This document shows, in pieces, positions 13,600 to 43,880 of a stretch of DNA of 64,000 bases. A program made the translations under genes and the position numbers. Source of the stretch: Limnoperna fortunei (Eukaryota; Mollusca; Bivalvia; Mytilida; Modiolidae); the NCBI GenBank assembly GCA_944474755.1, contig OX104124.1:8086437-8150436 (forward strand). The letters run 5' to 3'. How positions within the stretch are numbered: position 1 is the stretch's first letter; the number at the start of each line of letters is the position of its first letter. Below the pieces are notes generated by a model. That model ran no database searches, was not told where the DNA came from, and saw nothing but the letters and a program-made list of their open reading frames with translations.

Positions 13600-14520
13600 T
13601 GGGGAAGAGATCCAAACCTTGAGATGTTTATCGGATTTTTTTGAGATTGAAATCCAAACGTAAAAATTATATCTATATATTAATTAAATGTCTTCATTTA
13701 AAAATAATAGCATTTGCATAAAACACTCCAATTTAAAACTACAAAATATTAAATATCAATATAAAATCTGTACAAATTTAACATACTCATAAACAAGAGA
13801 AACATGCATGCCGATCTACCAAAACCCTAATTACATGGAAAACGTTAAAGAAAGATCATATATGTTACATCTATTTTCTCAATGTTTGTCTTTTTAAACA
13901 CAATTAAACTTTCCGCTGTACTTTCTAAAAGTCGAGTGCAGACTGCATGCCAAATATGTAACTAAAATAAAAATGTTCCATTGTTACTGATAAACTCAAA
14001 TTTTAACTCATTACGATTTAAATTTCATTGCTTTTGTCAACATTCAGTCAAAAAAGATGATCATTTGTAAAACAAAAGTCGTCATGGAACACGTCTTAAG
14101 ACATCCCCAACATGATTAGCAAAATCTCCTTAGTTAAATTGTTCGTGAAATATACAGAGCATGTCAAAGGTAGGAGGTCTTTGACAAGTTCTCTAATTTC
14201 ATCACCCTTTCAAAACTGGATATAGCGGATGCAATGCTGAAAGTGGCATAAGGCAACAAAACCAGCTATGAAAGAAAATTGTAAAGTGATATTATCATGA
14301 CAAGTTATACAAAAGTGTAAAGAGTTTTACCATTGTTAGCCAGTAATGATCGTCATTAGTATTAAACAAAAGGAGTAAAGATACTATTAAGAATTGTTTG
14401 TTGGCTCCAAAAACTACATGTAGTTAAGTTACTAATTCCTATAACTGGTGTATGACCACATAATCAATACGGCCCTTCCTAATAACAGCATCATTTATCA
14501 GTCAAATTTGAAATACGAAA
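13600..14520. other. AT-rich non-coding DNA, possible SINE tail near 14200
   Basis: A short segment near 14205-14265 ('AAAACTGGATATAG', 'TGCTGAAAGTGGCAT') resembles the 3' end of the SINE but is too short and diverged to be sure. Nothing else was recognised. Confidence 0.3.
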
Positions 14521-15039
14521 CTTAGTGAATTTTTTTGTACTTACATACTGAAACCAAACATATCATTCGTAATAGATTATAAAAAATGTAAAGTAACAAT
14601 GATAATAGAACTAACATGTGAAAACTATATGCATATATATTAATTCTTCAATTGTATCTTCAAAGTTTAATTTATATGATGAAATATTTAGAATAAGAAA
14701 GAAAAACATCTTATTGAATAGATTGTGACTAAACTTTTCATGGCAATATAAATTGTCATGCATTGATGGTAAGACATTTAGAAAGTTAGAGGAAGTCCGT
14801 ATAGTAAACAGCATAATAAAAGATCTACTGTTAGATAATGATGTGCCTTCTCTTAGGTAAAAAGTAGTGTGTCTATAATTAACAGTTGAGTTGTTACTAA
14901 ACAGGACTGTTGTATTTTATAATTAGTTTTTTATGTAGAAAATAAACCAAACGAAAATCAGATATTAGTCTTTAGCTGGTATAAAATTATCAGTAAATGT
15001 GCCAGTAACTAATACGATAATGAGTAATTTAATTTATAA

Positions 15040-15100
15040 TCTTACTGTTACTTTCTTTACTTGTTTTTATTCTTCCTCTGAAAAAAATCATTAACAGTAG
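15040..15100 (-). other. Degenerate array unit, possible terminal exon
   Basis: The unit at 15040-15100 aligns with the array ('CTTACTGTTACTTTCTTTAC' on plus), but GTAAGT is gone. On the minus strand the acceptor TTTTTTTCAG is followed by six codons (AGG to AAG) and then TAA. If the micro-exons are read in phase 0 this would be a natural last coding exon. The further site at 14545 would then lie outside the coding part, so the two readings conflict. Confidence 0.25.
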
Positions 15101-17208
15101 CAAAAAACTAAAACGTGTAATAGCAACGGATACTAAAGTGAAAATGTTTGTTAATTAATCAAACATTTAAATTTAAAAGTCCACACCGCATGCGTCAAGG
15201 TAATTATTTATGTGAAATAAGTCTAGAATTAACATTGCATGGAATTTTTTCGTATAAAAATAATAAATAAAGTGTTAATATATTATTAATTTGCAAATGT
15301 ACATTGTAGGTAAAAAGATGTAAGACGACATACTTGAGAAGGAAATAGGCATTAAACATTTAAAGGTAACATATTAAATAATTGATTGATATCAAAAGAA
15401 AGTGCATGAATGTAATAATTGTGATTCAAGCATATCGGATTTTCAATTGTCATATAACTGACACTTGTAACACTAAAACCAAAGATGATATGAGTGAAGA
15501 TAATGTTGTTTTTAGTATATTTAATATCTTGGCTCGTACTTACAGACAAAAAACAAGCAAATAATATTGTAATGTTGTTACCAATGATAATAACAGTCAC
15601 GTTGTAAACTTTATGTAATAATATAGGTCAATTTAAGTCTATATTTGGATATGATGTGCTTGAGAAATAACCATCAGTGAAAAGATGTCTTTGAGTGAAA
15701 AAAATTACAAATAACGTGTGATTATTTTAATTATTTGTAAATGTATAGCTGTGGGTACGAAATATAGAAGGTGATAAATTAGAATTATAAAAAACTGACA
15801 GATTCCGTAGGAGGTATATATTGTCATAAACCAGCTTCGACTTTATATGATTTAATTTCCATTAAGTAGTAAAAACACCATCGACAACTTCATTATTGAT
15901 ACAAACTGTAACACTAAACCCAAACATGTAGTGTGTTTCCTATCTCCTGACCGATCTGGTGCAAAAAGAAATCGTTATATTTTGATAAGACCCTTTCAAC
16001 CAAGAAACCTTCGTTATTAACTGCAACAGAATGTCATATATCAGTGAAGGTTGCTTTGGGTAATGCTGTGTTGTTTTATTAATAAACTTGTCTTTACTTT
16101 CTTGGTTTGTACTTACTTTCAGAAAAACAAACAAACAATATGTTTTAATGATCACAACAGTGGAAGAGTATTACTAAGGTTTATAGCAGTGACATTGTAA
16201 ATTTAAAATAATTAAATATTTCATATCAAGTCTATATTACAATTTTATGTGCTTTAGAAATAAATATCAACAACTTGTATTGTTCATACAACTTGTAACA
16301 CTTAAACCAAAGATGAAGTGTGATGTCAATTTTCGCCCGATCTTTTGCATGAACGAATTTGTTCGATTTTAATAAGACCACAATAACCAAGACAATTTGT
16401 AAATAACTCCAGAAGAATGTCATATTTGAGTGAAGATAGCATTGGTAAATGTTGTGTTGTTTTATTGATATCTGTGCTTGTACTTACGAACTCAAAACAA
16501 ATTATATGTTTTAAATGATTACACATTATAATAATAGTAATATTGTAAACGCTATGTAAAAATATGTCAAATCAAATCTATATTACGAGATAATGCTCTC
16601 GAAAAATAAATATCGGTGGGAAATTCCTCGAATTAACATGTGTAAAAAATTGAAAATAAGGTGCGATTACATAAATTATTTGTACAAGAATACTGGTGGT
16701 AGGAAATATTTTCATTGTTTATGCAACATATAATAGTAAAACCAAAAATGTATTGGGCTATCAATCTCCTGCACGATCTTGGGAAGTTATGACACATTTC
16801 TTAGAACTTTTATGAGACAATCCAACTAAAAAACGTTCAGAATAACTATAGGCAGAATCTCATGCTTAAGTGATCATAGAATTGGGTAATGTGGTGTTGT
16901 TTTATTGATATAATTATCGTTACTTTTTGGCTTCTACTTACTTTCTGAAAAAAAAGAAACAAATAATATGTTTTAAATCATCACATTAGTGGAAGAGTAT
17001 AGAGTATTGCGAAGGATAATAAAAGTAACATTGTAAAGTTTATATAGTATATGTCCATTCAAAGTTTACATTACAAAGTTATGCGCTTTTGAAATAATCA
17101 TCTGTGAAAATTATGTTTTATGAATTAACATGTGTAAAAAAATAAAAAATAAGTTTTGATTACATAAATTATTTGTACAAACATAATGGTGGTAGGAAAC
17201 ACAGAAAG

Positions 17209-17491
17209 TAAGATTTATAGTTTATTTACGTTTTTTGAAACGAGATGCGTTTTCTCGTCGTATCGCATCGAAGGGCGACAGCCCTGAGATGAGATGGCGA
17301 GAAAATGCATCGAGTTTCAAAAAACGTAAATAATCTGTTTATCGCTATTTTGTAACATTGTGACGTCACAGTGTTTTCTTAACGACGTCTTGTCAGCGAG
17401 CTGAGATGGACCCATCTCAAGCTAGTAGAGTGAGATGGAATAATATCGCACATAAAGATCAAAGGAAAATACCTCAAAATAGCGATAAGAT
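17209..17491. mobile_element. 271-bp hairpin element inserted in an array unit
   Basis: It interrupts the unit sequence GGTAAGATGATGAATTATAG and is flanked by TAAGAT on both sides (17209-17214 and 17486-17491), a likely 6-bp duplication. Inside, arms 17225-17257 and 17298-17330 form a ~33-bp near-perfect hairpin, and TTATCGCTATTTTG at 17339 is inverted at 17475. Confidence 0.65.
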
Positions 17492-19469
17492 GAATTATAG
17501 ATGAAGTTGAAACTTTATCAATTTTTTTGTTTATTTCTGACTGTTAAACATTTGGCAACACATTTTTATGTGACAGGATTTAGGAGAATAGGTATGTATT
17601 GCGAGAATGACCTCCAGGCATATTGAATTTACAGTTTTCATTTAGAAGATATAAAATCTTCATTGTTCATGCAACAGTTAACAGTAAAACCAAATATGTA
17701 TTGTGTTATCAATCTCCTTCATGGTCTTGGTCAATGACACATTTGTTAAACTTTGATGCGATCATCGCAACTAAATAAACGTTCTGAATAACTATCAGCA
17801 TAATGTCATTTTTAAGTGAAGATATCATTTGGTGATGCTGTGTTGTTTTATTGATATACTTATCGTTACTTTCCTGGATTGAACTTACACACTGAAAAAC
17901 AAACAAATATGTTTTAAATCATCACATCAGTGGAAGAGTATAGAGTATTGCCAAGGATAATAGAACAATGCCTCGAATTAACATGCGTAGACAATTATAA
18001 ATAACGTGTGATTACATTAATTGCTTGCACAAGAATACTGGTGGTAGGAAATATAGAAGGTAAGATGATGAATTATAGTTGAAATTTAAACTTCATCGAT
18101 TGTTTGTTTAGTTCTGACATTTAAACTTTCACCAACACTTTAGTAAGAGACAGGTGTTAGGAGAATAGGTATGCATTGCGCAAATGGCCTTTCGGCATAT
18201 AGGATTTACAGTTTTCATTTAGTAAATGTACCATCTTCATTGTTCATGCAACAGATAACAGTTAAGCCAAAAATGTATTGTGTTATCAATCGTCTGCACT
18301 GTCATGGGCAATGACACATTTGTTAAACTTTGATAAAACCACCCCAACTAAAAAAAGTTCTGAATAACTATTAGCAGAATGTCATGTTTAAGTGAAGATA
18401 TAATTGGGTAATGTTGTGTTGTTATATTGATATACTTTTCGTTACTTTCTTGGATTGTACTTACAAACTGAAAAACAAACAAATAATACGTTTTACATCA
18501 TCACATCAGTGGAAGAGTATAGAGTATTGACAAGGATAATAGAAGTAACATTGTAAAGTTTATGTAATAGCATATGTCAATTCAAAGTTTACATTACTAT
18601 ACGATGTGCTTGTGAAATAATCAGCCGTGAAAAATGCCTCGAATTAAAATGTGTAAAAAATTTTTAAAAAAGGTGTGATTACATAAATTATTTGTACAAG
18701 CATACCAGTGTTGAGCAATATAGAAGGTAAGATCATAAATTATAGCTAAAATTAAAATTTCATCAATTATTTGTTTATTTCTGACTCTATTTCTACTTTA
18801 TTTCTAACTTTCAGCAACACTCTTTATTAAGTGACAGGTGTTCGGAGAATAGGTATGCATTGCGAAAAAGACCTTCCGGCATATAGGATTTTACTGTTTT
18901 CATTTAGTAGATATAACATCTTCATTGTCCAGATAACATATAACAGTGAAACTAAAGATGTATTTTGCTATCAGTCTCCTGCACGATTTTGGGCAATGAC
19001 AAATTTGTTAAACTTTGTTAATACCACCCCAACTAATGAAACATTCTGAATAACTATCAGCAGAATGTCATGTTTAAGTGAAGATAACATTGGGTAATGT
19101 TGTGTTGCTTTATTGATATACTTTCTTGGCTTGTACTTACAAGCTGAAAACAAACCAATAATATGTTTTAAATCATCATATCAATATAAGATCATAGAGC
19201 ATTGCCAAGATAATAGAAGTAACCTTGTAAATTTTATGTAATCGTATATGTCTATTCAAAGTTTATATAGGATTTACAGTTTTCATTTTGTAAATATATA
19301 TTATCTTCATTGTTTATGCAAGATATAACAGTAAAAGCAAAGATGTATTCTGTTATCAATTTCCTGCAGGGTCTTGGGCAATGACAAATTTGTTAAACTT
19401 TGATAAGATCACCACAACTAAAAAAACGTTTTGAATAACTATAAGCAGAATGTCATGTTTAAGTGAAGA

Positions 19470-22400
19470 TACAGATGGGTGCAGTCCTAACATAACATGC
19501 TAGTTAACTTGTAAAGCAGAGATTCTGACTGCTTAAGTTAACTTCGAGCAGAGAATTTGACAACCCAAGTTAACTCGGGCTGTTCTTTTGACAATTTTTG
19601 TACAATGTATTTCTGTCCACTTGACAATTTTTTGACACTTTCTGTCTACTGGACGTTTTTTTTATTTTGACAATTTCTGTCCTGTGGACAATTTTTTTTC
19701 TTTTGACAATTTGTTCACGTGACGAGTTTGTCAACAGGACATTTTTTGTTCTGACAATTTTATCGCGTGACAACATTTTTTATTTTGGAAATTTATGTCC
19801 ACTTTGTCAACTTGCTAACCTTTCGACTGACACTTTAAACCACTTTTAACTTTTACTTTAATGCTTTTTTTAACAATTTATTTAGAAAAGACGTCGATTT
19901 AATTTATCTGCACGTTGTCGGAATAAAAAGATACGAAAGATGAAAATCAAATCGTTTGTTGTTTATTAAAATCCTATTACCAAAAATAATCGATATAATA
20001 CAAATTAGTAATGAAAGAATTTTATATTAAAGATCTGTTTGCTTTTTACGTATTATTGCGGAAAAAAACATGTTATAAATTACGTCTCGGAAACATATTA
20101 CTTATTGCGCCGTTGTTTCCTTTAATTAAATATTAATGTACAGTCCAATACATTAAGACACATCTTTGTTATATAAATATCTATCAATCAATACGAAATC
20201 ATAATATAAATTATTACAACTCTTGAATTTAGCAATCATTCAAAATATAAATTAAGTCTACATGTATCCAATTGAAAGTACACTGCAATAACCAAATTGT
20301 GTGATAATAATAAAAAAGGTTAAAGATCTATGACAGTTCTGTATTTGAACCATTAAATCTCATTATAGTACACAACTACTATTAGGTCAAATATCTTATA
20401 TATACAATTGTAACACCCACATTTTTTCTATACCAGTGTGTGTAACATGGTTTTTAATTTCATTTCTGTTGTCCTGAGAGTGAGTTTATATATGTAATAT
20501 TTGTTTAATTGCATCCCTTAGGTCTCACAGTTAAATTTTTATGTAAAATATGGTTTTTAATTTCATCACCAAAGTCTCAGGATTTATTTTATTTTTATAT
20601 TATGTGTAAAATGATTTTTTAACGCTAAAATCTCAAGCATGTTTTATATGTTAAATATTGTTTTCAATTGCATTTTCAAGGTCTCATGATTGATTTTATA
20701 TATTGAATATGGTTTTTTATTGCATCGCTAAGATCACTGGCTTAATTTTATATGTGAAATATGGTTTTAATTGCATCCCTCGGGCCTTCGGGGTGATTTT
20801 ATATGTGTACTTTGGTTTTCAATTGCTTCATTTAATTCTCCAAAGCAATTTTGTACTTGTACCATGGTTTTTGATTGCATCTTGTGGGTATCAGGAATGA
20901 TTTTATATGTAAAATATGGTTTTAATTCCATTACTAATATCCCCAGAGTGATTTTATACATAAAATATGGTTTTTTATTCTATAGCTCAGGTCTCATGAT
21001 TGATTTTTTAAGTAAAATATAGTTTTTATTTCCATCACTAAGGTCACAGAAATGATTTTATAGGTGAAATATGGTTTTTAATTGCATTGCTAAAGTCTCA
21101 AGATTGAATTTATATGTTAAATATGGTTTTAATTGCATTCCTATGGTCTCCAGAGTGATTTTATATGTGAGATATTGTTTTTTATGGCATTATCAAGGTT
21201 TCAGGAGTGATTTTATATGTGAAATATGGTTTCTAGTTGCATTGCTAAAGTCACGAGATGTTAAATATGGATTTTAATCTCATCGCTTAGGTCTCTAGAG
21301 TGATTTTATATCTGACATATGGTTTTTGTTTACATCGCTATAGTCTTATTAGTAATTTTACATATTAAATATATTTTTTACTTGTATTGCCAAGGTTTCA
21401 GGATTGATTTTATATGCAAAATATGGCTTTAATTCCATCAATAAGGTCTCAGGATTGATTTTATATGTAAAATATTGTTTGTAATTGCATGGCTAAGGTC
21501 TACAGAGTGAATTTATATGTGAAATATAGTTTTTAATTGCATTGCTATAGTTTCATTAGTGACTTTATATGTAAAATATGCTTTTTAATTGCATTGCTAA
21601 GGTCTCCAGAGTAACTTTATATGTGGAATGTGGTTTTTAACTGCATTGCTGAAGTCTCATGATTGATTTTATATGTTAAATATAGTTTTTAGTTGCATTG
21701 TTAATGTCTCACCTGATTTATTTCATATGTAATTGTATTGCTATAGGATCAGGATTGATTTTATATGTGAAAAGGGTTTTTAATTGAATCCCTTAAGTAT
21801 TTGGAGTTATTTTATGTTAGAAATATGTTTTTAATTGCATCGCAAAGATCTCTAGAGTTATGTTTTGCATTTAATATGGTTGTAATTTATATTTCTATGT
21901 TCTCATGAGTGGTTTGATATGAATAAGATGTTATAATTTGGGATTTTATGGGTGATTTGTTTTAAATAGTGGATTTGAAGTTAAAAAGCATATCCTGGGA
22001 TGTAGGCAGCCAAGATTTGAAAAATAATTAATATTATTATAATGAAATAAAAAGTGAAATGTATGTATTAATAATAGATATAGTGATACCGACATACATG
22101 TGAATTTTAACAGTATTATTAAATAAAAATATTGCAGGTAAGGATTTATACTTTTATATTTTTATTTAACTACACGAAAAAAATATATCTGATTGCTCAA
22201 TCATAATAATAATAACATAATAATAATAGCAATATGGTGAGAGCTACAATCTAAATTTGTAACCACAACCATTTACCGAAACGCGGACGGGAAGAAAATC
22301 GCGTTCTTTAAGATAGACTGCCGTAGATTTCGTTAATTAACTTTATTGGTGAATGCCTAATTGACAATTTGTAACGAATTATTTAAATAAAGGATATATT

Positions 22401-22778
22401 TTGAATTTTGAGAAAAATAGGGCATTTTGTGACTTGAAAATTGAAAAGCACAGATTTTAACATTTTTTGTCCACTAGACATTTTTGTCACGTGACAATTG
22501 AAAAGCAGAGATTTTGACAATTTTTGTCCACTGGACATTTTTAAGCAGAGATTTTGACCGTTTTTGTCGATTTGACAAAAGCAGAGATTTGGACCGTTTT
22601 TGTCCACTTGACAACAGCAGAGAATTTGACAATCTTTAAAGCAGAGATTTGGACAAAATTTTGTCCAGTCAAAGCGATCAAATTGACTGGTTTTTTTATC
22701 AAAAAGCAGAGATTTTGACAAGAGATTTGGACTGGTTTAAGTTAACTTTATGTCATGTTAGGACTGCACCTAACTGTA
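19470..22778. mobile_element. 3305-bp TA-flanked element with 52-bp tandem array, copy 1
   Basis: The element (19472-22776) sits inside an array unit: flanks read GAAGA-TA and TA-ACATTGGG, and the uninterrupted unit reads GAAGATAACATTGGG, so TA was duplicated. Ends are inverted: CAGATGGGTGCAGTCCTAAC on the left, and CAGTTAGGTGCAGTCCTAAC as the complement of the right, each followed by AGTTAACTT. Inside are a left block of TTTGACAATTTCTGTCC-type repeats (19590-19830), a ~29-unit 52-bp array (20440-21960) and a right block of GCAGAGATTTTGACA-type repeats (22440-22720). There is no transposase, so it is non-autonomous. Confidence 0.88.
20440..21960 (+). repeat. 52-bp tandem array, about 29 units
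   Basis: Consensus is TTTTATATGTGAAATATGGT, then TTTTAATTGCATCGCTAAGG, then TCTCAGGATTGA. Spacing of the ATATGG core is close to 52 bp through the array. Units differ at several positions each, so the array is not freshly amplified. Short open frames here are by-products of the repeat. Confidence 0.9.
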
Positions 22779-25700
22779 ACATTGGGTAATTTTGTGTTGT
22801 TTTATTGATATACTTATCGTTACTTTCTTGACTTGTACTTACTCTCTGAAAAACAAACCAATAATATGTTTAAAATCATCACATCAGTAGAAGATTATAT
22901 AGCATTGCCAAGGATAATAGAAGTAACCTTCCAAAGTTTATGTAATCGTATATGTCAATTCAAAGTTTATAGTGCAATATTATATGCTTTATTATAAACT
23001 TTCTGAAACACTTTATTAAGTGACAGGTTTAAGGTGAATAGGTATGCACCCCCGTGCACTGCTGAAATGACCTTTCGGCATATAGGATTTACAGTTTTCA
23101 TTTAGCAGATACAAAATCTTCATTGTTCGTATAACAGATAACAATAAAACCAGAGATATATTGGGTTATCAATCTCCTGCACGGTCTTGGGCAATGGCAA
23201 ATTTATTAAACTTTGATAAAAACACCACAACTAAAAAACGGTCTGTATAACTATCAGCAGAATGTCATGTTTAAGTGAAGATAGCATTGTGTAATGTTGT
23301 GTTGTTTTATTGATATACTTATCGTTACTTTCTTGGCTTGTACTTACAATCTGAACAACAAACAAATAATATGTTTGAAGTCGCCCCATTAGTGGAAGAG
23401 CATAGAGTATTGCCAAGTATAATAGAAATAATATATAAGGTTATGTAGTTGCATATGTCAGTTCAAAGTTTATATTATAATATTATGCGCTTGTGAAATA
23501 ATCATCCGTGGAAAAATGCCTCGAATTAACACGTGTAAAAATTAAAAAGAACGAAATTAAAACTTCATCCATCATTTGTTTATTTCTGACTTTTAACCTT
23601 TCTGCAACACTTTATTAGTAACACGTTTAAGGTGAATATGTATGCACTACGAAAATGACCTTTCAGCATTTCGGATTTTCAGTTTTGATTTATCGGATAT
23701 AATATCTTCATTGTTTATCCAACACATAACAATAAAACCAAAGATTTATTGTGTTCTCAATCTCCTGCAGGGTCTTGGGCAATGACACATTTGTTAAACT
23801 TGATAAGATCACCACAACTAAAAAAAACTTTTTGAATGACTATCAGCAGAATGTCATGTTTAAGTGAAGATAACATTGGGTAATTTTGTGTTGTTTTATT
23901 GATATACTTATCGTTACTTTCTTGGCTTGTACTTACAAGCTGAAAAGGAAACAAATAATATGTTTTAAATCATCATATCAGTGTAAGATCATAGAGCATT
24001 GGCAATGATAATAGAAGTAACATTGTAAAGTTTATGCAATCATATATGTCAATTCAAAGTTTATATTGCAATATTATGCGCTTGTGAAATAATCTTTCAT
24101 GAAAAATGCCTCGCAATAACATGATTGTGTAAAAAATTAAAATAACGTTTGATCACATATTTGTCCAAGCATACGGGTGAGAGGATATATAAAAGGTAAG
24201 TTGCTGAATTATAGATCAAATTATTAAATTTTCATCCATTATTGGTTTATGTCTGTCTTTTAAACTTCAGGAACACTTTATTCAGTTACATGTTTTAGAA
24301 GAATAGGTATGCATTGCGAAAATGGCCTTTCGGCATATAGGATTTACAGTTTTCATTTTGTAAATATATAACATCTTCCTTGTTTATCCATGATATAAAT
24401 GTAAAAGCAAAGATATATTCTGTTATCAATCTCCTGCACGGTCTTGGGCAATGACAAATTTGTTAAACTTTGATAAGATCACCACAACTAAAAAAAAACG
24501 TTTTGAATAACTATAAGCAGAATGTCATGTTTAAGTGAAGATAACAATGGGTAATTGTGTGTTGTTTTATTGATATACTTATCGTTTCTTTCATGGCTTG
24601 TACTTACATCCTGAAAAACAAAAACAAATAATATTTTTAAAATCATTACATTAGTGGAAGTGTATAGAGTATTGCCAAGGATAATGGAAGTTACATGTAA
24701 AGTTTATGTAATCTTATATGTCATTTCAAAGTTTATATTGCAATGTTATATGCTTTATTATAAACTTTCTGAAACGCTTTATTAAGTGACAGGTTTAAGG
24801 TGAATAGGTATGCACCCCCGTGCACTGCGAAAATGACCTTTCGGCATATAGGATTTACAGTTTTCATTTAGCAGATATAAAATCTTCATTGTTCGTCTAA
24901 CAGATAACAATAAAACCAGAGATATATTGTGTTATCAATCTCCTGCACGTCATGAGCAATTACAAATTTGTTAAACTTTGATAAAACCACCACAACTAAA
25001 AAAACGGTCTGTATAACTATCAGCAGAATGTCATGTTTAAGTGAAGATAACATTGTGTAATGTTGTGTTGTTTTATTGATATACTTATCGTTACTTTCTT
25101 GGCTTGTACTTACAATCTGAAAAAATAAACACATAAGATGTTTGAAGTCATCACATCAGTGGAAGTGTATTGAGTATTTACATGGATAATAGTATTAACA
25201 TTGTAAAGTTTAAGTAATTGTATATGTCCATTCAAAGTTGATATTACAATATTATGCAATTGTGAAATAATCATCCGTGAAAAACTCCTCGAATTAACAC
25301 GTGTAAGAAATTAGAAATAACGTGTGATTACATAAATTATTTGTACAAGCATACCGATGATAGGAAATATAGAAGGTAGTATGATGAATTATAAATTAAA
25401 ACTTCATGAATTATTTGTTTACTTCTGACTTTAAGACTATCCGCAACACTTTATTAAGTGTGAGATGTTAGGATAATAGGTATGCATTGCGAAAATGGCC
25501 TGCGTGTATAATTTACAGTTTTCATTTTGTAGATATAACATCTTCAATGTTCCGGAAACATATAACCATGATATACTTATCGTTATTTTCTTGGCTTGTA
25601 CTTACTCCCTGAAAAACAAGCACGTAATGTGTTTTAAATCATCACATGAGCGGAAGAGTATAGAGTATTGCCAAGGATAATAGAAGTAATTTTGTAAAGT

Positions 25701-25976
25701 ATATGTAATCTTGTATGTTAATTCAAATGTTAAATTACAATATTATACGCTTGTGAAATAATCATTCGTGAGATATGCCTCGAATTAACATGTGTACAAA
25801 AATTAAAAATATGGTGTGTTTTACATCAATTATTTGTGCAGCATGCTGGTTGTAGGAAATATAGAAGGTAAGATGATGAATTATAGATGAAATTAAAACG
25901 TCATCAGTTATTTGTTTAATTCTAACTTTCAAACTTTCAGCATTTTTTATTAAGTGACAGGTTTTTGGAGAAAAGG

Positions 25977-28900
25977 TACAATTTTTTTGACAATTTCTTT
26001 CCACTGGACATTTTTGTCCTTTGGACAATTTCTATCCACTTTTGACAATTTCTGTCGTCTGGACAATTTTTTTTCTTTTGACAATTTTGTCGCGTGACTA
26101 GTTTGTCAACGGGACATTTTTTGCTCTGACAATTTTATCACGTGACAAGTTTGTCCACTGGACATTTTTTATTTTGGAAATTTATGTCCACATTGTCAAA
26201 TTGCTAACCATTCGTCTTACACTTTAAACCATTTTTAACTTATACTTTTTTAATGTTTGTTGACAATTTATTAAGGAAAGACCGGCTGGTTATACCGTAC
26301 GTCGATTTATTTTATATGCGCGTTGTCAGAATAAAAAGTATACGAAAGATGAAAATCAAATCGTTTGTCGTTTATTAAAATCCTATTACAAAAACAATCG
26401 ATATAATACAAATTATCAATAAAATAATTTTATATCTAAGAATTGTTTGCCATTTACGTGTTTCTGGATATCATTGCGGAGAAAATATTTTTTTCTAAAT
26501 CTTACGTTTCGGAAACATATTACTTATTGCGCCGTTATGTTCCTTTAATTCAATATTAATGTACAGTCCAATAAAGAGAGACACATCTTTGTTATACACA
26601 TATCTATTAATCAAGCAATTCTTCGATATCATAATATTACTTTATACAACTCTTGAACTTAACAATCATTCAAAATATAAATTATGTCTACATGTATCGA
26701 ATTGAAAGTACATTGCAATAACCAAATTGTGTGATAATAATAAAAAAAGGTTAAAAATTTATGACAGTTCTGCATTTTAACCACTAAATCTCATAATAGT
26801 ACACAACTACTTAACAATAATGTAAAATATCTTATATTTACAATGGTAAAACCTACATTTTTTCTATACCAGTGTGTGTAACATGGTTTTTAATTTCATC
26901 TCTGCTGTCTTGAGAGTGAGCTTGTATATGTAATATTTGTTTAGTTGCATCGCTTAGGTTTCACAATTAAATTTTAATGTAAAATATGGTTTTAAATTGC
27001 ATCGCTTCGGTTTCAGGATTGATTTGATACATGTAAAGTGGTTTTTAATTGCATCGCCATGGTCTCAGGATTTATTTTGTATGTGTAAAATGATTTTGAA
27101 TTAAAACGCTAAAATCTCAAGCATGTTTTATATTTTAAATATTGTTTTTAATTGCATTGTCAAGGTCTCAGGATTAATTTTATATGTGGAATATGGTTTT
27201 TTATTGCATCGCTAAGATCACTGGCTTAATTTTATATGGGAAGTATGGTTAATTGCATCACGCAGGCATTCGGAGTGATTTTATATGTGTACTATGTTTT
27301 TAATTGCTTCATTTAATTCTCCATAGAAATTTTGTACTTGCACTATGCTTTTTGATTGCATCTTTTGGCATCAGGAATGATTTTGCATGTAAAATATTAT
27401 TTTAACTCCATAACTAATATCTCCAGAGAGATTTTATACATAAAAAATGGTTTTTAATTTTATAACTCAGGTCTCAGGATTGATTTTATATGTAAAATAT
27501 AGTTTTTATTTCCCTCACTAAGGTCACAGGAATTTTATAATATGTGAAATATGGTTTTTAATTGCATCACTAAAGCCTCAAGATTGATTTTATATGTTAA
27601 ATGTGGTTTGTAATTGCATTGCTATGGTCTCCAGAGTAAGTTTATATGTGAGATATTGTTTTTAATGCATTACCAAGGTTTCAGGAATGGTTTTATATGT
27701 GAAATATGGTTTCTAGTTGCATTACTAAAGTCTCGGGATTGATTTAATATGTAAAATATGGGTTGCATCGCTTAGGTCTCCAGAGTGATTTTATATGTGA
27801 CATATGGTTTTTGATTACATTGCTATAGTCTTATTAGTAATTTTGTATGTTAAATATATTTTGTAATTGTATTGCCAAGGTTTAGGGATTGATTTTTATA
27901 TGTAGAATATGGTTTTAATTCCATCATAGTGTCTCAGGATTTATTTTATATGTAAAATTTAAGTTGTAATTTCATGTCTAAGGTGCCCAGAGTGACTTTA
28001 TATGTGAAATATAGTTTTTAATTTCATTGCTACAGTCTCATTAGTGATTTTGTATGTTAAATGTGGTCTTTAATTGCATCACTTTGGTCTCAAGAGCGAT
28101 TTCATATATGAAATATGGTTTTTGATTATATTCTTTTAATCTCATTAGAGATTTAATATGTTAAATATAGATTTTAATTGTAATTCAAAAGTTTCAGGAT
28201 TGATTTTATATGTGAAATATGGGTTTTAATTCCATCACTAAGGAGTCAGGATTGATTTTATCTGTTGAATATGTATTTTAATGGTATTGCAAAGGTTTCA
28301 GGATTAAATTTATATGCAAAATATGGTTTTTAATTGCATGGCTAAGGTGTCCAGAGTAACTTTATATGTGAAATATAGTTCTTAATTGCATTGCTATGGT
28401 TTCATTAGTGATTTTATTTGCAAAATATAGTTTTTAATTGCACGACTAAGGTCTCCAAAGTAACTATATATGTGGATTATGTTTTCAATTGCTTTGCTAT
28501 AGTCTCGTGATTAAAACTGGTCTAAAGTATTTGTAGTGATTTTATATGAGAAATATGTGTTTTAATTGCATCGCAAAGGCTGCTGGAGTGATATTATGTA
28601 TTTAATATGGTTGTAATTTATATTTCTATGTTCTTAGGGGTGATTTGATATGGATAAGAGGATTTACTTTGGGGTTTTATTGGTGATTTGTTTTAAATCG
28701 TGGAATTGAAGTTAAAAAGCATATCCTGGGATGGCAGCCAAGATTTGAAAAATAAATAATATTATTTAGTTTGAGATAAAAATGTGAAATGTAAGTACTA
28801 ATAATTGATATAGTGATACCGACATACATGTGAGTTTTAACAGTATTATTTAATAAATATATTACATGTTAGGATTTATACTTTTATATTTGTATACAAC

Positions 28901-29628
28901 TACACGAAAAAAATCTGATTGATCAATAATAATAATATAAAGAATAATAATCATGACAATAATAACATAATAATAATAGTAATGTAGGGAGAGCTACAGT
29001 CTAACTTTGTAACCACAGCGGCTTGCTATACATTTACCGAAACACGGACGGGAAAGAAATCGCGTTCTTTAAAGTATACTGCCGTAGATTTCTTTAATTA
29101 ACTTTTAGTGAACGTCTAATTGACAATTTTTAACGAAATGATGAAATAAAGCATATATTTTCACTTTTTATACAAAAGGATATTGTGTGACTTGAAAATT
29201 GAAAAGCAGAGATTTTCACTGGTTTTGTCCACTGGACATTTTTGCCACGTTACATTTGAAAGCAGAGATTTTGACAATATTTGTCCACTGGACATTTTTG
29301 TTCCGTTACATTTGAAAGCAGAGATTTTGGCAATATTTGTCCACTGGACATTTTTGTCACGTTACATTTGAAAGCAGAGATTTTGACAGTTATTTGTAAA
29401 TTTGACCAAAGCAGAAATTTCGACCGTTTTTGTCCACTTGACAAAACCAGAGAATTTGACAATATTTAAAGCAGAGATTTGGACAAAATTGTGTCAAGTC
29501 AAAGCGGTCAAATTGACTGTTTTTTGTCAAAAAGCAGAGATTTTTTCTCTCAAAATAAGAGATTTTGACAAGAGATTTGGACTGGCTTAAGTTGACTTCA
29601 TGTTATGTTAGGACTGCACCTAATTGTA
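25977..29628. mobile_element. TA-flanked element with 52-bp tandem array, copy 2 (3648 bp)
   Basis: It is inserted in another array unit: left flank GGAGAAAAGG-TA, right flank TA-TGCATTGCG, where intact units read GGAGAATAGGTATGCATTGCG-like sequence. The right end (CATGTTATGTTAGGACTGCA, then CCTAATTG) matches copy 1. The left end has lost the terminal ~100 bp and begins directly in the TTTGACAATTTC block, yet the TA remains. The interior 52-bp array spans about 26865-28640. A triplicated 56-bp unit with TTTGTCCACTGGACATTTTT lies at 29195-29390. Confidence 0.85.
26865..28640 (+). repeat. 52-bp tandem array in copy 2, about 34 units
   Basis: It has the same unit as in copy 1 and is longer by several units. 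It includes one stray insertion near 28510 reading 'AAACTGGTCTAAAG', a phrase otherwise found in the ATCCGTCAG family. Confidence 0.85.
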
Positions 29629-29689
29629 TGCATTGCGAAAATGACCTCACTGTATATAGGATTTACAGTTTTCATATTGTAGATTTGTA

Positions 29690-29860
29690 ACTGCAGAATA
29701 TGGTTTTAATTCCATCAATAGGGTCTCAGGATTGATTTTATATATAAAATATGGTTTGTAATTGCATAGCTAAGGTATCCATAGTGACTTTATATGTGAA
29801 ATATAGTTTTTAATTTAATTGCTACCGTCTCATTAGTGATTTTGTATGTTAATTATATGG
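29690..29860 (+). repeat. Detached fragment of the 52-bp array
   Basis: About three 52-bp units ('ATATGGTTTTAATTCCATCA', 'GGGTCTCAGGATTGATTTTA') lie outside the TA-flanked element, inside the next array unit, between 'GTAGATTTGTAA' and 'TTCAAAGTTCATGC'. This suggests a gene-conversion or template-switch event. Confidence 0.7.
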
Positions 29861-31054
29861 TTTTCAAAGTTCATGCAACATAAAACGGTGAAACCAAAGA
29901 TGGTCCTACACGGTCTTGGGCATTGACAAATGTGTTAAACTTTGATAAGACCATCCCAACCAAAAAAGCGTTCTTAATAACTTTCAGCAGAATGTCATGT
30001 TTAATTGGGTAATGTTGTATTGTTTTTTTTATATACAAATCGTTACTTTCTTGGCTTCTACTTACAGGCTGAAAAATAAGCAAATACTATGTTTGAAATC
30101 ATCACATCAGTGAAAGAGTATAGCCACGGATAATAGCAGTAACGTTGTAAAGTTTATGTAATTGTATATGTCAATTCAAGTTTGTATTACAATATTATGC
30201 GCTTGTGAAATAATCGATAAGACCACCACAACTAAAAAAACTTTCTGAATAACTATCAGCAGAATGTCATGTTTAAGTGCAGATAGCATTGGGTAATGTT
30301 GTGTTGTTTTATTGATATACTTATCGCTACTTTCTTGGCTTGCACTTACATCCTGAAAAACAAACAAATAATATGTTTGAAATCATCACATTAGTGGAAG
30401 AGTATAGATTACTGACAAGGATAATAGAAGTAACATTGTAAAGTTTATGTAATCGTATATGTCAATTCAAAGTTTATATTATAATATTATGTGCTGTTGA
30501 AATAATCATCCGTGAAAAATTCCTCGAATCCCAAAAAATAAAAAATATCGTGTGATTACATAAATTATTTGTACAAGCATACTAGTCATGGCTAAATCAC
30601 GCTCATGATCCACTAAATGTAGTGCAAAGAAAATAGTCAGAGCGATTTCCGGTTATGAATGAGCAGCCTGAATAAAATTAAGAGACTAACGATAAAGCAA
30701 CTGAATTGGATTTCAAGACAGCGGAGATGATCAAAATTAAAATGATGAAAATAAATTTCCAAAACAAAACTGACGAAATACAGGCATTAGTGTTTATTCA
30801 TTTAACGTATTTTGTTTACTCATAATATGCTGCTTTTTAACAGCGGGTGTGATTTACAGAGCGGACTGAGCTGGGGAATATTTGTAATTACCTGATTCGC
30901 GTATTATGCGCATGTAAGCATATAGTGGATTGTTACCACTTTAATTGTTCCCTTCATACAATTTATTCAAATAATGTTGTTTTTGTGCTTTGTGCTATAT
31001 GCCTTACCAGGTCCATTTTGTTTTCCAGAACCAGGATGCAACTACAGTCCTGTA

Positions 31055-31352: not shown

Positions 31353-31605
31353 TTCACTCCATTGACCTGTGTTGCTATATAGTCTGCAATATAAATATGT
31401 GTATATTTTGATTCAGTTCTAGCGAATGTTGAGCTCAATTAAGGCGATGATATTTATTGTGCGAGGATACAGAGTAACTGTAGGAAACCCAAGACCGCAA
31501 ATAGAAAAAACGGGAGTCTTGATCAATACCTAGATAGATAAATGAATGTTGTAGAAACTAATAGAAGGTTCAATAGTATAGTTAGTTTTAGGTTGTTTTG
31601 GTATC

Positions 31606-32880: not shown

Positions 32881-33627
32881 ATATAGAAATATTATTGCTG
32901 ATAACCATTCTGATGTGTTCTTATTAGATGATGGTAATGATTTGAATGTGTCTGTTAATAGTATGGATGAACATAAGGTGTCTAAATTGATGGAAGATGA
33001 CCCTCAAGTTGTCAAAACTAAAACTAGAAAGGCAAAGCTTCTGTTGGTAGAGTTATAAAGGGCTCTGCATTAGTTGATAAGGGTGTAAAAAGAAAAGCCA
33101 GTAAATCAGCAGAGGATACTATTAGGCCTGCAAAAGTAATTAAATCTTCTTTTTCACATAATGAAATTCAGGAGCTAAAACAGAAAATGGGTATTGACTC
33201 TATGTCTAAATCATTGAATAGTATTGATAAAATATTACAAAAATTGTTGAATCCACAGTCATCTAGTACTGTTACAAGGGCATCTAGTGCTGCTGCAAGG
33301 CCCACTTGTATTAATTCTGAAGTGCCAAGAATGGCTCCAAATTCTTACAGGCCTATTCTTTCCTTAGAGCCAAATTTAGATTCAGATGATGTCGTTAACA
33401 ATTTTGATATAAATTATTTAGGTAATTAACCTGTATCTAGTTCTGTAGCTAGTGCTAGTCCTGCTACTGTTAATGCTAGTTCATTTGATACTGTGAGTGG
33501 TTTTGCTGTGGCTTTCCATGATCAATATATTCAGCAGGTACAACCTGACAATACGCTTGTTTCTACATGTGATGTACAGGCCCAGAGTAATGGTATATGT
33601 AGTACTTTTCCTAGTGCTGTACATGTA
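32881..33627 (+). pseudogene. DIRS-type retrotransposon gag-like protein, N-terminal part
   Basis: The frame starts acidic ('FLLDDGNDLNVSVNSMDEHK'), continues with a Lys-rich stretch after a frameshift near 33038 ('KGVKRKASKSAEDT'), then 'MSKSLNSIDKILQKLLNPQ' and a Ser/Ala-rich linker. A TAA lies in frame near 33427 but the reading frame continues sensibly after it to codon GTA at 33625-33627, where a TA-flanked element interrupts it. The frame resumes in phase at 37113. Gag proteins of this class package element RNA; identity rests on the position before RT and on the downstream half. Confidence 0.6.
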
Positions 33628-36175: not shown

Positions 36176-37112
36176 GTAAGTATACTTTTTTAACTTCTTT
36201 TATTGCCTGTCAAATAAAACTTGAGACCAGAATCGCTGTATATTTTACAATACAACTTTTTGTTTACTAATCAATGTGGACTGATTGACAATGCTTGTTC
36301 AACAGTTGAACAATTGTTTAAACACAACAGTTTTATGATTGTATTAAAAAAATTTTGTAGACTTAATAAAAACACGCAGGCATACATTCAAGTAACTACT
36401 AATGATGCCAAAACGAGGCCAAGGCCTTTCCTAAATGTGAAATAAATCTGTTACTGATTGGGGGAGTCGGGTCGGCTTAATATACGACAAAATATATACA
36501 TGTAACAGGTTTCAGAAAATAAAATAGGCCGAAATCACGAGTAGCGGAAATAAAAAAAGAGAATCAATAATGGATTAAGAAAGGAAAACATTTACCTCGT
36601 CGCTACTGATGCGCCTTAAATCGCTTAAGTTTTTTTTTAAGGTTTACAGGGCTCGACCCGCAGATATGTCCTGCCTTAAAGAAATTTGCTTAATTATATA
36701 ATATATAGAAAATAGTTTTTTCTTTAAAATTTTTATTTATTTTATTTTTTAGAACTAGACATTGTATTAACTTTTCTTTTGAATACTTGCGTTTATTTTA
36801 TTATAAATGTTATTATAAATGCATTTATAATATACAAATGATGCAGAATTCGTTTTATCTTTAAATTATTAATTTATACGCATCCGTCAATAAACTGACC
36901 GATTTATGCATATAATTAAATGACGGATTCTGGATCGCACTGATTGGACTTATTGCACTGATCGCTGACGGTTACCAAGGTAATGACGGATTCATAATTT
37001 TGGACGGATGTATTCATCATCAATCATTCAGCGATCCGTCAGTGTTCCAAAATCCGTCAGCAATCAGTTATCAATCAGTCAAAGTGTTGCGTTTACGGGT
37101 GCAAGTACTGTA

Positions 37113-37868
37113 GCTTCGGTTTTTCAGGACACGAGTCATGTTACGTGTCGTTCTGATGGAATTGATTTATGGGAAATTCCCCAATTAAGGTCAGAAGAAC
37201 AAACTGGTCCTTCAATAAATGTTGGTCTGGCAAAAGCTGTTAATGCTGCTGTTACAATAAAACCCAATGTTGATAGTATAAAAATAATAGAAGATAAGTA
37301 TCTCAGACCACAAACTGTGACAATTTGTGCTGTCCTAGAGTTAACAAGGAAATTTTGGCAGCTCTTCCCAAACCTGCACAAAATGCAGATTCAAAATTAC
37401 AGGAGGTTACGAGATACTTGGCAAAAGGTATGATCCCACTTGTTCAGTTGGCTGATCTCTGTACAAAAACTGAGCCTCTAGACCCTGTTAAAACAAGGGC
37501 TATGCTTACAGATTCGTTATGTCTTAGGTGCATTTCGTAGTTTTTCACAGAGGCGTAGGTCTATCATGAGACCAAACTATATGTAATAATGATATACCAG
37601 TTGATAATTTGTTGTTTGATACTGATCGTATAAAGAAAATGAAGGAGATTTTACCAAAATGCCTATGACAATTAAGTCTAAACCTCTAGGTAAATCTAAG
37701 GTTTATGGTTCTGGTTTCAATTATTATAACAGTAACCATGGAAATTTAAACTTCAAGGGCCCTGTCATGGGACAGGGCAACAGATTTCCAACTCCTCAGA
37801 GAGGCAGGAGCAGAGGGTCTTACAGAGGAACCCCAAGAGCTGCAAGGGGCAGTTACAACCGATATTAG
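37113..37868 (+). pseudogene. DIRS-type retrotransposon gag-like protein, C-terminal part
   Basis: It continues the gag frame after the TA-flanked insertion: 'SVFQDTSHVTCRSDG', 'VGLAKAVNAAVTIKP', then after a frameshift near 37330 'RVNKEILAALPKPAQNADSK' and 'LAKGMIPLVQLADL', a stretch typical of the capsid-like protein of DIRS elements. A further frame (37659-37868) ends in a Gly/Arg-rich basic tail ('RGRSRGSYRGTPRAARGS') fit for nucleic-acid binding. At least two frameshifts mean no full product. Confidence 0.7.
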
Positions 37869-37933
37869 AACCTTCTGTTAAATAAGGTGAGAAATGTTAA
37901 TAGTTCTGAGTGGTATAAAATAACTTCAGATCT

Positions 37934-39629: not shown

Positions 39630-42600
39630 CAAGATAAGAAGCTAATTCATTTAATGGGATAATGGTAGTTCATTATGCAGTATGTGACAACAGTTGATGT
39701 CAATCAATTGAAGTCGACCAAAAAGTTTTGGTGACTTATTTTTTTTTGCAACCTTTCTTATATTATGTCCCCCAAACAATCTTTTGAGATACATTGTTTT
39801 GACTGGTTTCTTATTATTTTTCTTCTTCTTGTTTTTTTTTCGTCTTCCGATTTTTACTAAATTTGGTTCCAAGGTTCACATTAGTGTTCCAGTTGGATTT
39901 TGTTTCGACCGCTCGTTTCCAGATGGCAAATAAAACATTTCAAACTTAAAACGTTATCGGATCTTGCTAAAATTTAAAGTCCGTCGATGTTAACAAAATT
40001 TGACGTGGAATTAGATTTAAGTGTCCCGTTTGAAATGCTACCTGAAGAAGTTTTTCAGATTGTGAATTTTGAAGCGAATTGTTCAACCTTTTTAACCTGA
40101 ATATAGCTACAAGAGTAACAGTTTAACTAATCAATCTAACATAATTCCATGTAACTTTAATCCACGTCTTTTTTTCACGAAATGTACGATGCTTTTTGAG
40201 GTAAATGAAATACTATCCTAGGGATTTGATCGACCATTGTGTTGGCATCCAACACAAGTACTACTAGTATACTATGAGTTTTGAAGCATTTGTCCGACTA
40301 TGGTCATATGCAGTCTAAGATTAGACCAACAATCGTGACAAAAAGTTAAGCAGCACCATAGTTATTTGAAATGATGTACATCTGTTTATCTATCAATCAA
40401 ACTACTTAATTTGAAAATGGACATGTAGGTACTTGCCTTTCTTTAGTATTGTTTTTGCATTTCTTAATGGTGTTATGTTTATTGTGTTTCTAAAAAAGAC
40501 CTTTTCGATTACCGCTAGTTCTTACCGCGTTGAAGTCGTGCCAGTCTCCAATTTTATTTCGCTGCAAAAGAAAAACAATTTGGCTTTGAGATGAATTGTT
40601 TCTTACCGATTTAATGAGACGACAACAATAGATCGTAAAAATATAACTTTTTTAACAAAAGCAAACGTGTGTTAATTAAGGAAATTATTCACGTTTTAAT
40701 TATGAAATAGATTATTGCAAGCGGGCTCTATGTGAAACATGCTGATACCTTATGATTGTCACTATTTAATACCGAACGATAGTAAAGAAACAATTTGGGG
40801 AGGAAGCAGTTGTACTCCTGTTTCTGTTTCTCCATACAGTTTAATGTGACGGTCAAAATGTTGTCCCTGTGGGTCCATCCTTTATTTTTTATTAATTGTT
40901 CTAAACGTATCTGAAATATTGCTCGCTAGACGTTAAGCAAACATAATTTATCAGAAATCAAAATAAATAGAGTAGCAATGAGTAGAAAAAAAAAGTTTAA
41001 ATACGTGTTGTGATTCGGTAACCGACTACTTTGACTTACGGCATACATTTCTTATTCGCGACATCGCCGGGTCAAAGCAAGATTATTCCTTTACTAGATT
41101 TTTGTACAAAATCTTAAAAGAGAACTACTTGTGAAGTTTAATAATAATCAATACTATTTTTTCTGAAACAGTGTCACAGGAAAAACGGAACATATTGCAT
41201 AGGTTAACAATTCTGTTGCTATTGCGATTTTATACTCATTTTAATATCTGATACTTGTCTATCGTATTTCTTCTTAATTTGTTTTCATTTTTGACATATT
41301 TGCAACTTTTCGAGTATCTACGTATGCAAGACTGATTTTGTAATGTTTGTATCTCTTCACATCAAGTCGTCTTTGTAATATGTGGTTCTAGTATACATTT
41401 ATTTCTATTTTTTAACATTTATTGGTGTGGTTCATGCGGTTCCTTAAGTATAATTAAGGCTGAATTAGTTCAAATTAATACATTCGAATTAAAAATGGCT
41501 TCACCGAATTTTTTCAACAGAATATATGGCACAAACAACTGATAATAATTATTCAAATTATATTGACGAGAGAAATCTGGTGAACAAAAAGATGTATTCT
41601 TTTTTGTAAACGATTACGAGCGTAATATTGTCAATGATGTAAAAAACCAACACTTCACAGAGACGGTTGAATTAGAACATTTATGTCTTGGCTTATATGT
41701 CATGTAGCAAATGTGAAATACAAGATCATAAACAACATTATAAAAGCAAATTCAGACTTAAATTGATCCATTTTATACACATTTGAGGAAAGTGCTAATT
41801 TATTAATTAAATTAAATGTGATAGTTTGCGAGACACACCAAGTGAACAGGGTTGTTTTGTTTAAAGTTACTACTTTCTTTTTGTTCTAAAATTTATTTGG
41901 TCCTTTTTAGTTATATGACACCTAAAACATGCATTTAACTTACAAATTGTACTAAAGAATTTGGAGAAAAGCTGGGAAAGAGTCACACATACTAAATCAG
42001 CAAATACTGTGTTTGCAGACAAAGGAAGGCATTTTTTGAAATATATATCTCTTTCTAAGCTCTGTTGTAAACTTCAAGATGTTTCACATATAAACACTGC
42101 AATATAACACTTAATACTTTAATTTTGTATTACAAATAATGCGATACTGAGTTAGAGGTTGGTACCCACAATCCCTTTAACCATGACTTTTAGAAAGGAC
42201 ACAATAGATTTTTAATACACACATTTTGTATAGGAACATGCCTAGTACGCATGTCCGGACGAAAGTCCACAACAGTCACACCACCTGCAAGATCTAGCAC
42301 AGCCTATAAAGCGATGAAAATTGAAAAAAAAATACACCGGTGCTGTTGGATTGCACCTATAAATAAACGCGAAAGGAACCTTCAATTATACAAAATACAG
42401 TCTTCTAGAATGGGCATATTTGAACTCAAATTATACTAATCTTATAGTAATCTAATTCAAATATTATGGATATTTACTCATAACTTTGGACCAGGATGCT
42501 ACCAATTCGTGTATTTATTACTGATGCTAGCCCCAAATATATCACTGAACCATATCACAAAATCGATGTCAATAAAGCATGAAATCCTTATTCAAAACGC

Positions 42601-43109: not shown

Positions 43110-43880
43110 TTACCTTAAAATGAAGTATCCCATTAGGGTATCTATATCTTTTTGAGTTGCATCTTTAGTCTTGTACACCACGGATGGATGGCTAGACACC
43201 GACACTTCTTCAATTTTTGTAATATTGCTGTTAAGCGATTTTAATTTCTCAAGCAGATCTGGGTCATTTCTGTTTTTCTGCAATTCAAGATGTCGTTTTT
43301 CTAATTCCTTCATTTTTGTCTGCAATTTTTTAGTGTCGGAAATGATTTTGTCGACCTTCTCCTTTTCCGACCCAGTTTTATTTCTTAAATCGTTTATAAC
43401 TCTTTCAACTTGTCGATCTATTATAGCTTTTATTTCTGCGCCCTCCTCTGTTACTTGCTTGATAGCTGTTGCTACATCTTTGTCCAGTTGAATCAAGCCT
43501 TTTTCGAGTTGTTTGATTTTCTCGTTCAGGACTTCTGATTTTGAATGAAGTTTTCCATGGATTTCTTTCTTGAGATTGGTTAACTCATCACTGATCCTGG
43601 ACAAATCATGACCTTTATGCTTCCCGACAACACAGGCTGTACAGACGACTTTGTTGCAAGGAGAACACAAAAATACCAAGTCCTCATTGTGTTCTTTGCA
43701 TTTAGATTTTACTTCCTGTTCGACCCTTGAGCCATCTAGAAATTTATGATTAGCAGAAATTTTTTGTCTTTTATGTAGTAATTTACAATGGTCACAGAAT
43801 AACTGCTCACAATCTAAACAGAACTGAGAACCCGGTCCACCAGTACATATTTCACATATCTTGCGAGCAGCCTGAGCCAT
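43110..43880 (-). CDS. B-box / coiled-coil (TRIM-like) protein, first coding exon
   Basis: The protein begins MAQAARKICEICTGG at the ATG 43878-43880 in a good context (CAAAATGG); an upstream GTG-started frame extension is not needed. Two zinc-binding B-boxes are visible: CxxC-x8-CxxC-x4-CxxC-x3-H ('CEICTGGPGSQFCLDC', 'FCDHCKLLHKR'), then 'CKEHNEDLVFLCSPC', 'VCTACVVGKHKGH' with CxxH spacing of B-box 2. About 120 residues of heptad-like coiled coil follow ('EKIKQLEKGLIQLDKDV', 'KLQTKMKELEKRHLELQ'). The RING normally ahead of the B-boxes is absent. The frame ends in CATTTTAAG/GTAATA, a splice donor at 43115, with the TAA stop lying in the intron, so C-terminal exons (often NHL repeats in molluscs) lie at lower coordinates. 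Likely an innate-immune or ubiquitin-pathway adaptor. Confidence 0.85.
   Translation of the reverse strand: MAQAARKICEICTGGPGSQFCLDCEQLFCDHCKLLHKRQKISANHKFLDGSRVEQEVKSKCKEHNEDLVFLCSPCNKVVCTACVVGKHKGHDLSRISDELTNLKKEIHGKLHSKSEVLNEKIKQLEKGLIQLDKDVATAIKQVTEEGAEIKAIIDRQVERVINDLRNKTGSEKEKVDKIISDTKKLQTKMKELEKRHLELQKNRNDPDLLEKLKSLNSNITKIEEVSVSSHPSVVYKTKDATQKDIDTLMGYFILR

Follow-up and report, generated by a model that had tools for sequence, protein, structure and literature searches.

Tandem arrays of alternative exons are familiar from genes of the Dscam type, where the exons measure roughly 100–300 nucleotides (nt), and recursive splice sites follow the consensus CAG|GTAAGT. Published sources describe recursive splicing through "ratchet points", in which an acceptor adjoins a donor and long introns are removed stepwise (PMC8605326), isolated 3-nt micro-exons in mouse Ncam, Drosophila TnT and Drosophila homothorax (PMC8042270, PMC7392893), and exons of 3–81 bp in the micro-exon genes (MEG) of schistosomes (PMC10526429). 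Here, we analyse a 64,000-nt stretch of the Limnoperna fortunei genome (C14:8086437-8150436, hereafter the window), the minus strand of which carries a tandem array of units with three bases between a splice acceptor and a splice donor. Sequence comparison indicates that these triplets are quite likely protein-coding single-codon exons. As judged from its sequence, the window holds one copy of a multi-copy gene, in which an N-terminal B-box/coiled-coil exon and two small exons are followed by tandem duplicates of a unit of the intron–NNN–intron type.

The earlier note on this DNA had listed 16 minus-strand acceptor–NNN–donor sites; all of them were confirmed, with the triplets in the same order, the donor GTAAGT at 16/16 sites and the acceptor CAG at 13/16. 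Homology between the units extends approximately 150 bases to either side of the triplet, and the 13 copies of TTCAGNNNGTAAGT in the window all lie on the minus strand; 100 dinucleotide shuffles gave none. A canonical AG acceptor is present in 14 of the 16 units, each of which has 3 nt up to the GT donor. The acceptors other than CAG are GAG at 16490, where AG is kept, and CTG at 16119 and TTG at 15546, where it is absent; given the missing AG, the latter two units are probably not spliced. Divergence is strongest in the units at 14544, 16487 and 15543 (unit-matrix scores 23, 31 and 33; the remaining 13 score 38–52), and a relic unit near 15074 has an acceptor and lacks a donor.

The 3-nt spacing recurs in the units found by pattern searches of the 1.335-Gb genome. 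When TTTTTCAG was followed by 0–30 free bases and GTAAGTACAAGCC, there were 73 matches, 73/73 with exactly 3 bases, and with up to three mismatches (triplet form only) 308 sites were found; the reversed control gave 0 in both searches. Our grouping of the unit sites gives 14 clusters, distributed over C14, C5 and C12, and two sites that stand alone. A weight-matrix scan of sampled array DNA yielded 151 sites, 148 of them with a gap of 3. The remaining three (TCCAG|GCT, TAT|GAG and AAG|AGA) can each also be read with 3 bases; the TAT|GAG site lacks AG, and the AAG|AGA site also allows a 1-nt reading. A profile search recovered 169 unit centres, of which 135 combine AG, GT and 3 nt; apart from the units lacking only AG, which are considered below, a single centre has 3 nt but lacks AG as well as GT, another lacks GT and is broken, with 12 nt, and a third is cut short. 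The donor GTAAG is near-invariant in the profile alignment. The sampled parts of the arrays hold from 3 to 44 units each, the largest number being at 8.38–8.43 Mb (44 units, 17 without AG). A spread over unrelated genes, as expected of introners, is not seen: the listed matches cluster on C14 and C5 and at a single locus of C12, and 7/9 examined arrays follow the same gene.

Internal repetition is found in several arrays. At C14:8.22-8.43 Mb, GAA units are multiplied, with CAT or TAA replacing the CAG acceptor and a mostly perfect donor, and they often alternate with CCT units in blocks of approximately 1.3 kb. The codon string ATC AAA GCA TAT (IKAY) is present twice at 9.69 Mb (L061), and CAT ACT AAA TCT (HTKS) twice at 7.81 Mb (L032-L035), where the intervening units were partly sampled. 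A TCT unit without AG lies close to the 3' end of arrays in the window (15546) and near C14:9696140, C14:9832091 and C5:39893361.

For the gene model upstream of the array, the upstream DNA of three arrays was aligned and searched, in an unbiased manner, for conserved acceptor–donor pairs that enclose an open frame and differ in length by 3n. Only a 36-nt exon and an exon of 31, 34 or 40 nt were returned (exon 3, the copies of which thus differ in frame-preserving steps); the latter also appeared in a shorter form ending at a weak donor. Upstream of these two lies a B-box/coiled-coil reading frame, the TRIM-like exon, whose donor, TTAAG|GTAATA, leaves exactly two bases and is conserved in the aligned copies; the 36-nt exon, the splice sites of which were found in 7 copies, has a single open frame, takes one base at its start and leaves two bases at its end. 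Joined together, the three exons give 278 codons with no stop, ending in KDATQKDIDTLMGYFILSEIKLETGTTSTRLYSNTGQWSE. Since the TRIM-like exon ends in phase 2, the 36-nt exon runs from phase 2 to phase 2 and exon 3 ends in phase 0, each triplet would be a whole codon. The in-frame triplets after exon 3 read DPGIDLIRLFCKFKSY for all 16 units and DPGIDLIRLFCKFY for the 14 with AG, and the tail predicted for the window at full inclusion contains ...LYSNTGQWSEDPGIDLIRLFC...

The three-exon module precedes 7 of the 9 arrays whose 5' flank was examined, two of the seven being on chromosome 5. These two were checked after the model had been fixed, and all three exons, their splice sites, order and orientation were present; the TRIM-like exon there has 89% amino acid identity and no stop, and in both copies of exon 3 the predicted frame alone is open, as read from the alignment. 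The earlier note had named a 31.1-kb exon as a possible partner of the triplets, which is not supported: the MLFSIV... frame (31291-31058) is intact in the near-identical copy at 8.00 Mb and has stops and frame changes in the copies at 7.81 and 8.34 Mb, and the exons that were found lie elsewhere (see the table).

The predicted product begins with MAQAARKICEICTGG, which leads directly into a B-box zinc finger (Pfam zf-B_box PF00643, E 7e-14, 52.1 bits vs a cut-off of 24.1; an ANCHR-like B-box match has E 4.1e-11). The coiled-coil part matches PF25600 TRIM_CC with 19.4 bits, below the cut-off of 30, and aligns there with annotated mussel homologues. As the 294-amino-acid model has 14 Pfam matches, none of them to a RING domain, we call the protein TRIM-like, not TRIM in the strict sense. 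The secreted peptide proposed in the earlier note is unsupported; the predicted product begins as a B-box/coiled-coil protein. Among the mussel homologues there are 29 matches (P0001-P0029), the best with 44–45% identity; in two annotated M. edulis paralogues the coiled coil is followed by CETKTGTEKK (P0009) or CEIKTGTEKK (P0014), resembling SEIKLETGTT here. Neither exon 3 nor a micro-exon tail was seen in the 19 homologue sequences examined out of the 29.

The end of the array also agrees with a coding function. Of the 5 arrays where the end was found, 4 have TAA immediately after the terminal acceptor, namely those at 9.69, 8.31 and 8.38 Mb and one on chromosome 5, where TAA was expected beforehand and then found; the window has TAT. 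In the 8.38-Mb array the terminal unit has lost its separate donor. With TAA present, the protein would end at the residue of the last micro-exon. A 3' coding exon at approximately 13.96 kb, after TATTTTAG, was considered and rejected, as the alignment of eight copies, judged by eye, shows no phase-0 frame kept in common.

The TRIM-like exon is under purifying selection. Its 7 copies (from the window and upstream of 6 other arrays) are of full length, contain no stops and differ in length by 3 and 12 nt, and the ratio of nonsynonymous to synonymous divergence (dN/dS) is 0.17–0.47 in 20 of 21 pairs. The triplets behave in a different manner. In a profile alignment of approximately 170 unit copies from sampled DNA, including redundant copies and units without AG, the entropy at the three triplet positions is 1.98, 1.86 and 1.44 bits; among the 62 other listed columns the maximum is 1.63, the next value is 1.36, and 46 are below 0.5, with the splice-site columns among the most conserved. 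The comparison of triplet and flank diversity called for in the earlier note thus shows a triplet much more variable than the majority of the columns around it.

To quantify this contrast, we took the 135 unit centres (of 169) that have AG, GT and 3 nt, which also underlie the stop probabilities and the third-position and substitution counts given below; disjoint unit pairs were drawn 200 times, and the triplet was compared with other three-column windows. Triplet divergence was 0.076 vs 0.011 at a flank distance below 3% (about 32 pairs), 0.083 vs 0.018 below 5% (about 40), 0.218 vs 0.037 below 8% (about 46) and 0.344 vs 0.051 below 10% (about 49), i.e. 4.6–7.2 times faster than in the rest of the unit. 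It was the top window in 200/200 draws below 10% and was matched or beaten in 1/200 below 8%. All 49 of the 49 unit pairs less than 5% apart with differing triplets are nonsynonymous, and none of the 72 distinct triplet pairs less than 10% apart is synonymous. For the 20 of these 72 that are single-base changes, the synonymous expectation is 23% (96 of 422), while randomly drawn differing triplets from 49 clusters are synonymous in 2.4%; given this low expectation and the non-independence of pairs, the single-base count carries more weight than the count of 72 pairs. The earlier proposal that each triplet is a codon is well supported, in phase 0, by the gene structure, by selection and by the copies elsewhere in the genome.

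Several observations weigh against this conclusion. None of the three exons was found in the approximately 3 kb of 5' flank examined at the 9.69-Mb array, though at other arrays the TRIM-like exon lies 5.6–13.5 kb away, beyond that distance, and none was found in 8 kb of 5' flank at the 9.81-Mb array. At the 7.80- and 9.81-Mb arrays a terminal unit could not be recognised, and a database search gave no protein with three words in common with the part encoded by exons 2 and 3. Of the 169 unit centres, 31 have a GT donor and 3 nt and no AG acceptor; 22 of the 33 units without AG are of the single multiplied GAA type. The only stop among the 169 is a TGA near C14:9695547, in a unit without AG, and the sole stop triplet among the 100 matches listed of the 308 is a TAA at C14:7872291 (donor GTAAAT, outside the mapped arrays). 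Lack of stops gives weak support: for 49 clusters P = 0.23 under their own column composition and 0.022 under flank composition, and the former value on the strictest null led us to demote it from the main evidence. The third triplet position is T or A in 45 of the 49 clusters, more AT than we expect of ordinary codons. Another window equals or exceeds the triplet in 71/200 draws below 5% and in 21/200 below 3%, one pair of TRIM-like exons (a833/a843) has a dN/dS of 1.30 at a synonymous divergence of 0.023, and exons of 3 nt are hard to splice. Gene conversion of the flanks could inflate the ratio of triplet to flank divergence; alone, it would not make the triplet differences nonsynonymous.

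These points leave room for other explanations of the array. CAG NNN GTAAGT looks like a recursive splice site, and many units have a perfect donor without an acceptor, so the units might be spliced only in passing, as recursive or decoy sites, or be skipped altogether, with the triplets rarely entering the mRNA. We consider this unlikely: recursive sites leave 0 nt while 3 nt are kept in 73/73 exact matches, and the faster divergence of triplets than of introns, with close copies differing only by amino acid changes, is hard to explain without translation. A non-coding, satellite-like repeat with a triplet variable for a non-protein reason, e.g. as the variable core of a DNA element, seems very improbable. 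The units do stand in tandem amid other tandem repeats, and a weak dyad-like similarity surrounds some triplets, yet the opposite strand scores at most 9.4 with the unit matrix, which is small against 23–52 for the units; moreover, the splice-site columns are among the most conserved, orientation and phase match an intact gene at 7/9 arrays, and synonymous changes are absent from the distinct triplet pairs (0/72).

Two further possibilities accept that the triplets are, or were, coding. The arrays may once have been coding with many of them, perhaps including that of the window, now being pseudogenes; the TAT of the window in place of TAA, its two units without AG and the many GAA units without AG in other arrays would fit such decay, while the TRIM-like exon is stop-free in 7/7 copies and constrained in 20/21 pairs, which makes a decay of this kind rather doubtful. 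A mutually exclusive choice, with one array codon per transcript and thus a single variable residue, would agree with duplicated alternatives that follow constant exons and keep the frame. We judge it improbable overall, as nothing seen in the sequence forbids joining, the sampled arrays have 3 to 44 units, and in 4/5 cases the array closes with a stop-bearing acceptor, not with a further coding exon. If the triplets are coding, the use of variable subsets of units comes close to an even chance, the joining of all units in order is a serious possibility of somewhat less than even weight, and the choice of one unit at a time appears unlikely.

Assuming that the triplets are codons, we suppose that the pre-mRNA would be spliced stepwise, the 5' exons first joining a triplet. 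Because the triplet itself is followed by GTAAGT, the joined exon would end again at a donor and proceed to the next unit, a process resembling recursive splicing with 3 nt retained at every step. Every included unit would extend the C-terminal tail by one residue, and since skipping of any unit keeps the frame, one gene could yield tails differing in length and sequence. Selection would favour changes of the tail residues and conserve the remainder of the protein, as one would expect of a surface of recognition or evasion. We tentatively propose, as a possibility that we rate well below even, that the array could act as a one-residue-per-exon peptide generator, in which sequential splicing with stochastic or regulated skipping would provide a B-box protein of the immune type, from one locus, with a large set of C-terminal tails, all in frame, and thereby a somatic diversification system in an invertebrate. 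In principle, the 13 non-terminal units with AG in the window would allow up to 2^13 tails.

The coordinates of the features in the window are collected below.

Table. Features of the array-bearing gene in the window, in minus-strand order (window positions)
Feature	Positions	Strand	Remarks
5' coding exon, B-box/coiled-coil (TRIM-like), 255 codons + 2 nt	43114..43880	-	donor GTAATA
Coding exon of 36 nt, starting and ending in phase 2	40526..40561	-	EIKLETGTTST plus split codons
31-nt coding exon (exon 3)	31353..31383	-	LYSNTGQWSE, ends at codon boundary
Candidate single-codon exon 1, GAT (D)	30350..30352	-	TTTCAG acceptor, GTAAGT donor
Candidate single-codon exon 2, CCT (P)	30066..30068	-	
Candidate single-codon exon 3, GGA (G)	25606..25608	-	
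Candidate single-codon exon 4, ATT (I)	25114..25116	-	
Candidate single-codon exon 5, GAT (D)	24608..24610	-	
Candidate single-codon exon 6, CTT (L)	23937..23939	-	
Candidate single-codon exon 7, ATT (I)	23348..23350	-	
Candidate single-codon exon 8, AGA (R)	22843..22845	-	
Candidate single-codon exon 9, CTT (L)	19141..19143	-	
Candidate single-codon exon 10, TTT (F)	18465..18467	-	
Candidate single-codon exon 11, TGT (C)	17889..17891	-	nearest unit in the 7.99-Mb array is TTT
Candidate single-codon exon 12, AAA (K)	16942..16944	-	
Candidate single-codon exon 13, TTC (F)	16488..16490	-	acceptor GAG
Unit 14, AAA	16117..16119	-	acceptor CTG, no AG
Unit 15, TCT	15544..15546	-	acceptor TTG, no AG
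Terminal unit, TAT	14545..14547	-	homologous place is TAA (stop) in four other arrays
Candidate terminal exon without further splicing	14491..14547	-	TAT, 17 more codons, TGA (YVSTKKFTKFRISNLTDK, then stop); terminal status inferred

The introns of the array contain 52-base tandem repeats (20642-21711 and 26940-28506), near which repeats of the GTCCACT/TTTTGTCAC type, of 16–57 bases, are located. Between the 36-nt exon and exon 3, there are retroelement-like frames on the plus strand (36987-39119 and 33028-33429), which may be reverse-transcriptase-like, of the DIRS/Ngaro type. Broken transposase-like frames, presumably Tc1/mariner-like, lie at 3126-2118 (minus strand). A C1q-domain frame is situated 13 kb beyond the array (1620-1165, minus strand; PF00386, E 3.5e-10); no second copy of it was found in the array DNA compared, which reached less far downstream at the other arrays. 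A tRNA scan of the window found none.

If the single-codon exons are real, they would place exon size and exon number at the limit, each exon contributing a single residue over a run of a dozen to several dozen. Such a region would escape ordinary spliced aligners and the annotation of genes, and further genes of this layout are predicted to be absent from annotations. The array offers a direct test of the way in which the spliceosome copes with one 3-nt exon after another in the absence of exon definition, and a generator of diversity may come to light in a TRIM-related, multi-copy gene of a bivalve. A literature search, outside which most subscription papers fell, gave no paper joining microexons and bivalves; by their titles and the beginnings of their abstracts, the papers listed on 3-nt or single-codon exons included none on arrays.

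Among described proteins, the Mytilus TRIM-like/wech-like B-box proteins have the N-terminal B-box/coiled-coil architecture in common with the predicted product, at identities of at most 45%, and in some of them the coiled coil is likewise followed by a short exon of similar kind, but none of the 29 is near enough to be the array gene. With Dscam-type arrays, this locus has in common tandem duplicated exons of diversified content, but the exons here are of 3 nt. Ratchet points leave 0 bases, whereas three are left by the array units, in which the acceptor never abutted the donor in the 73 exact matches. The micro-exons of Ncam, TnT and homothorax likewise consist of one codon, but, as described in these sources, they are single exons of their genes, not arrays. 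The likeness to the schistosome MEG lies in many tiny exons with longer introns between them and in variable peptides (PMC10526429), and many consecutive exons of 3n length are present here by sequence (14 window units with AG and GT, all of 3 nt). Most of the coding sequence is not in micro-exons, as 278 codons belong to the three 5' exons and 255 of them to a single one. The array also differs from the MEG in having exactly one codon per exon, by duplication of one unit, and in probably forming the end of a B-box/coiled-coil protein, not of a secreted one.

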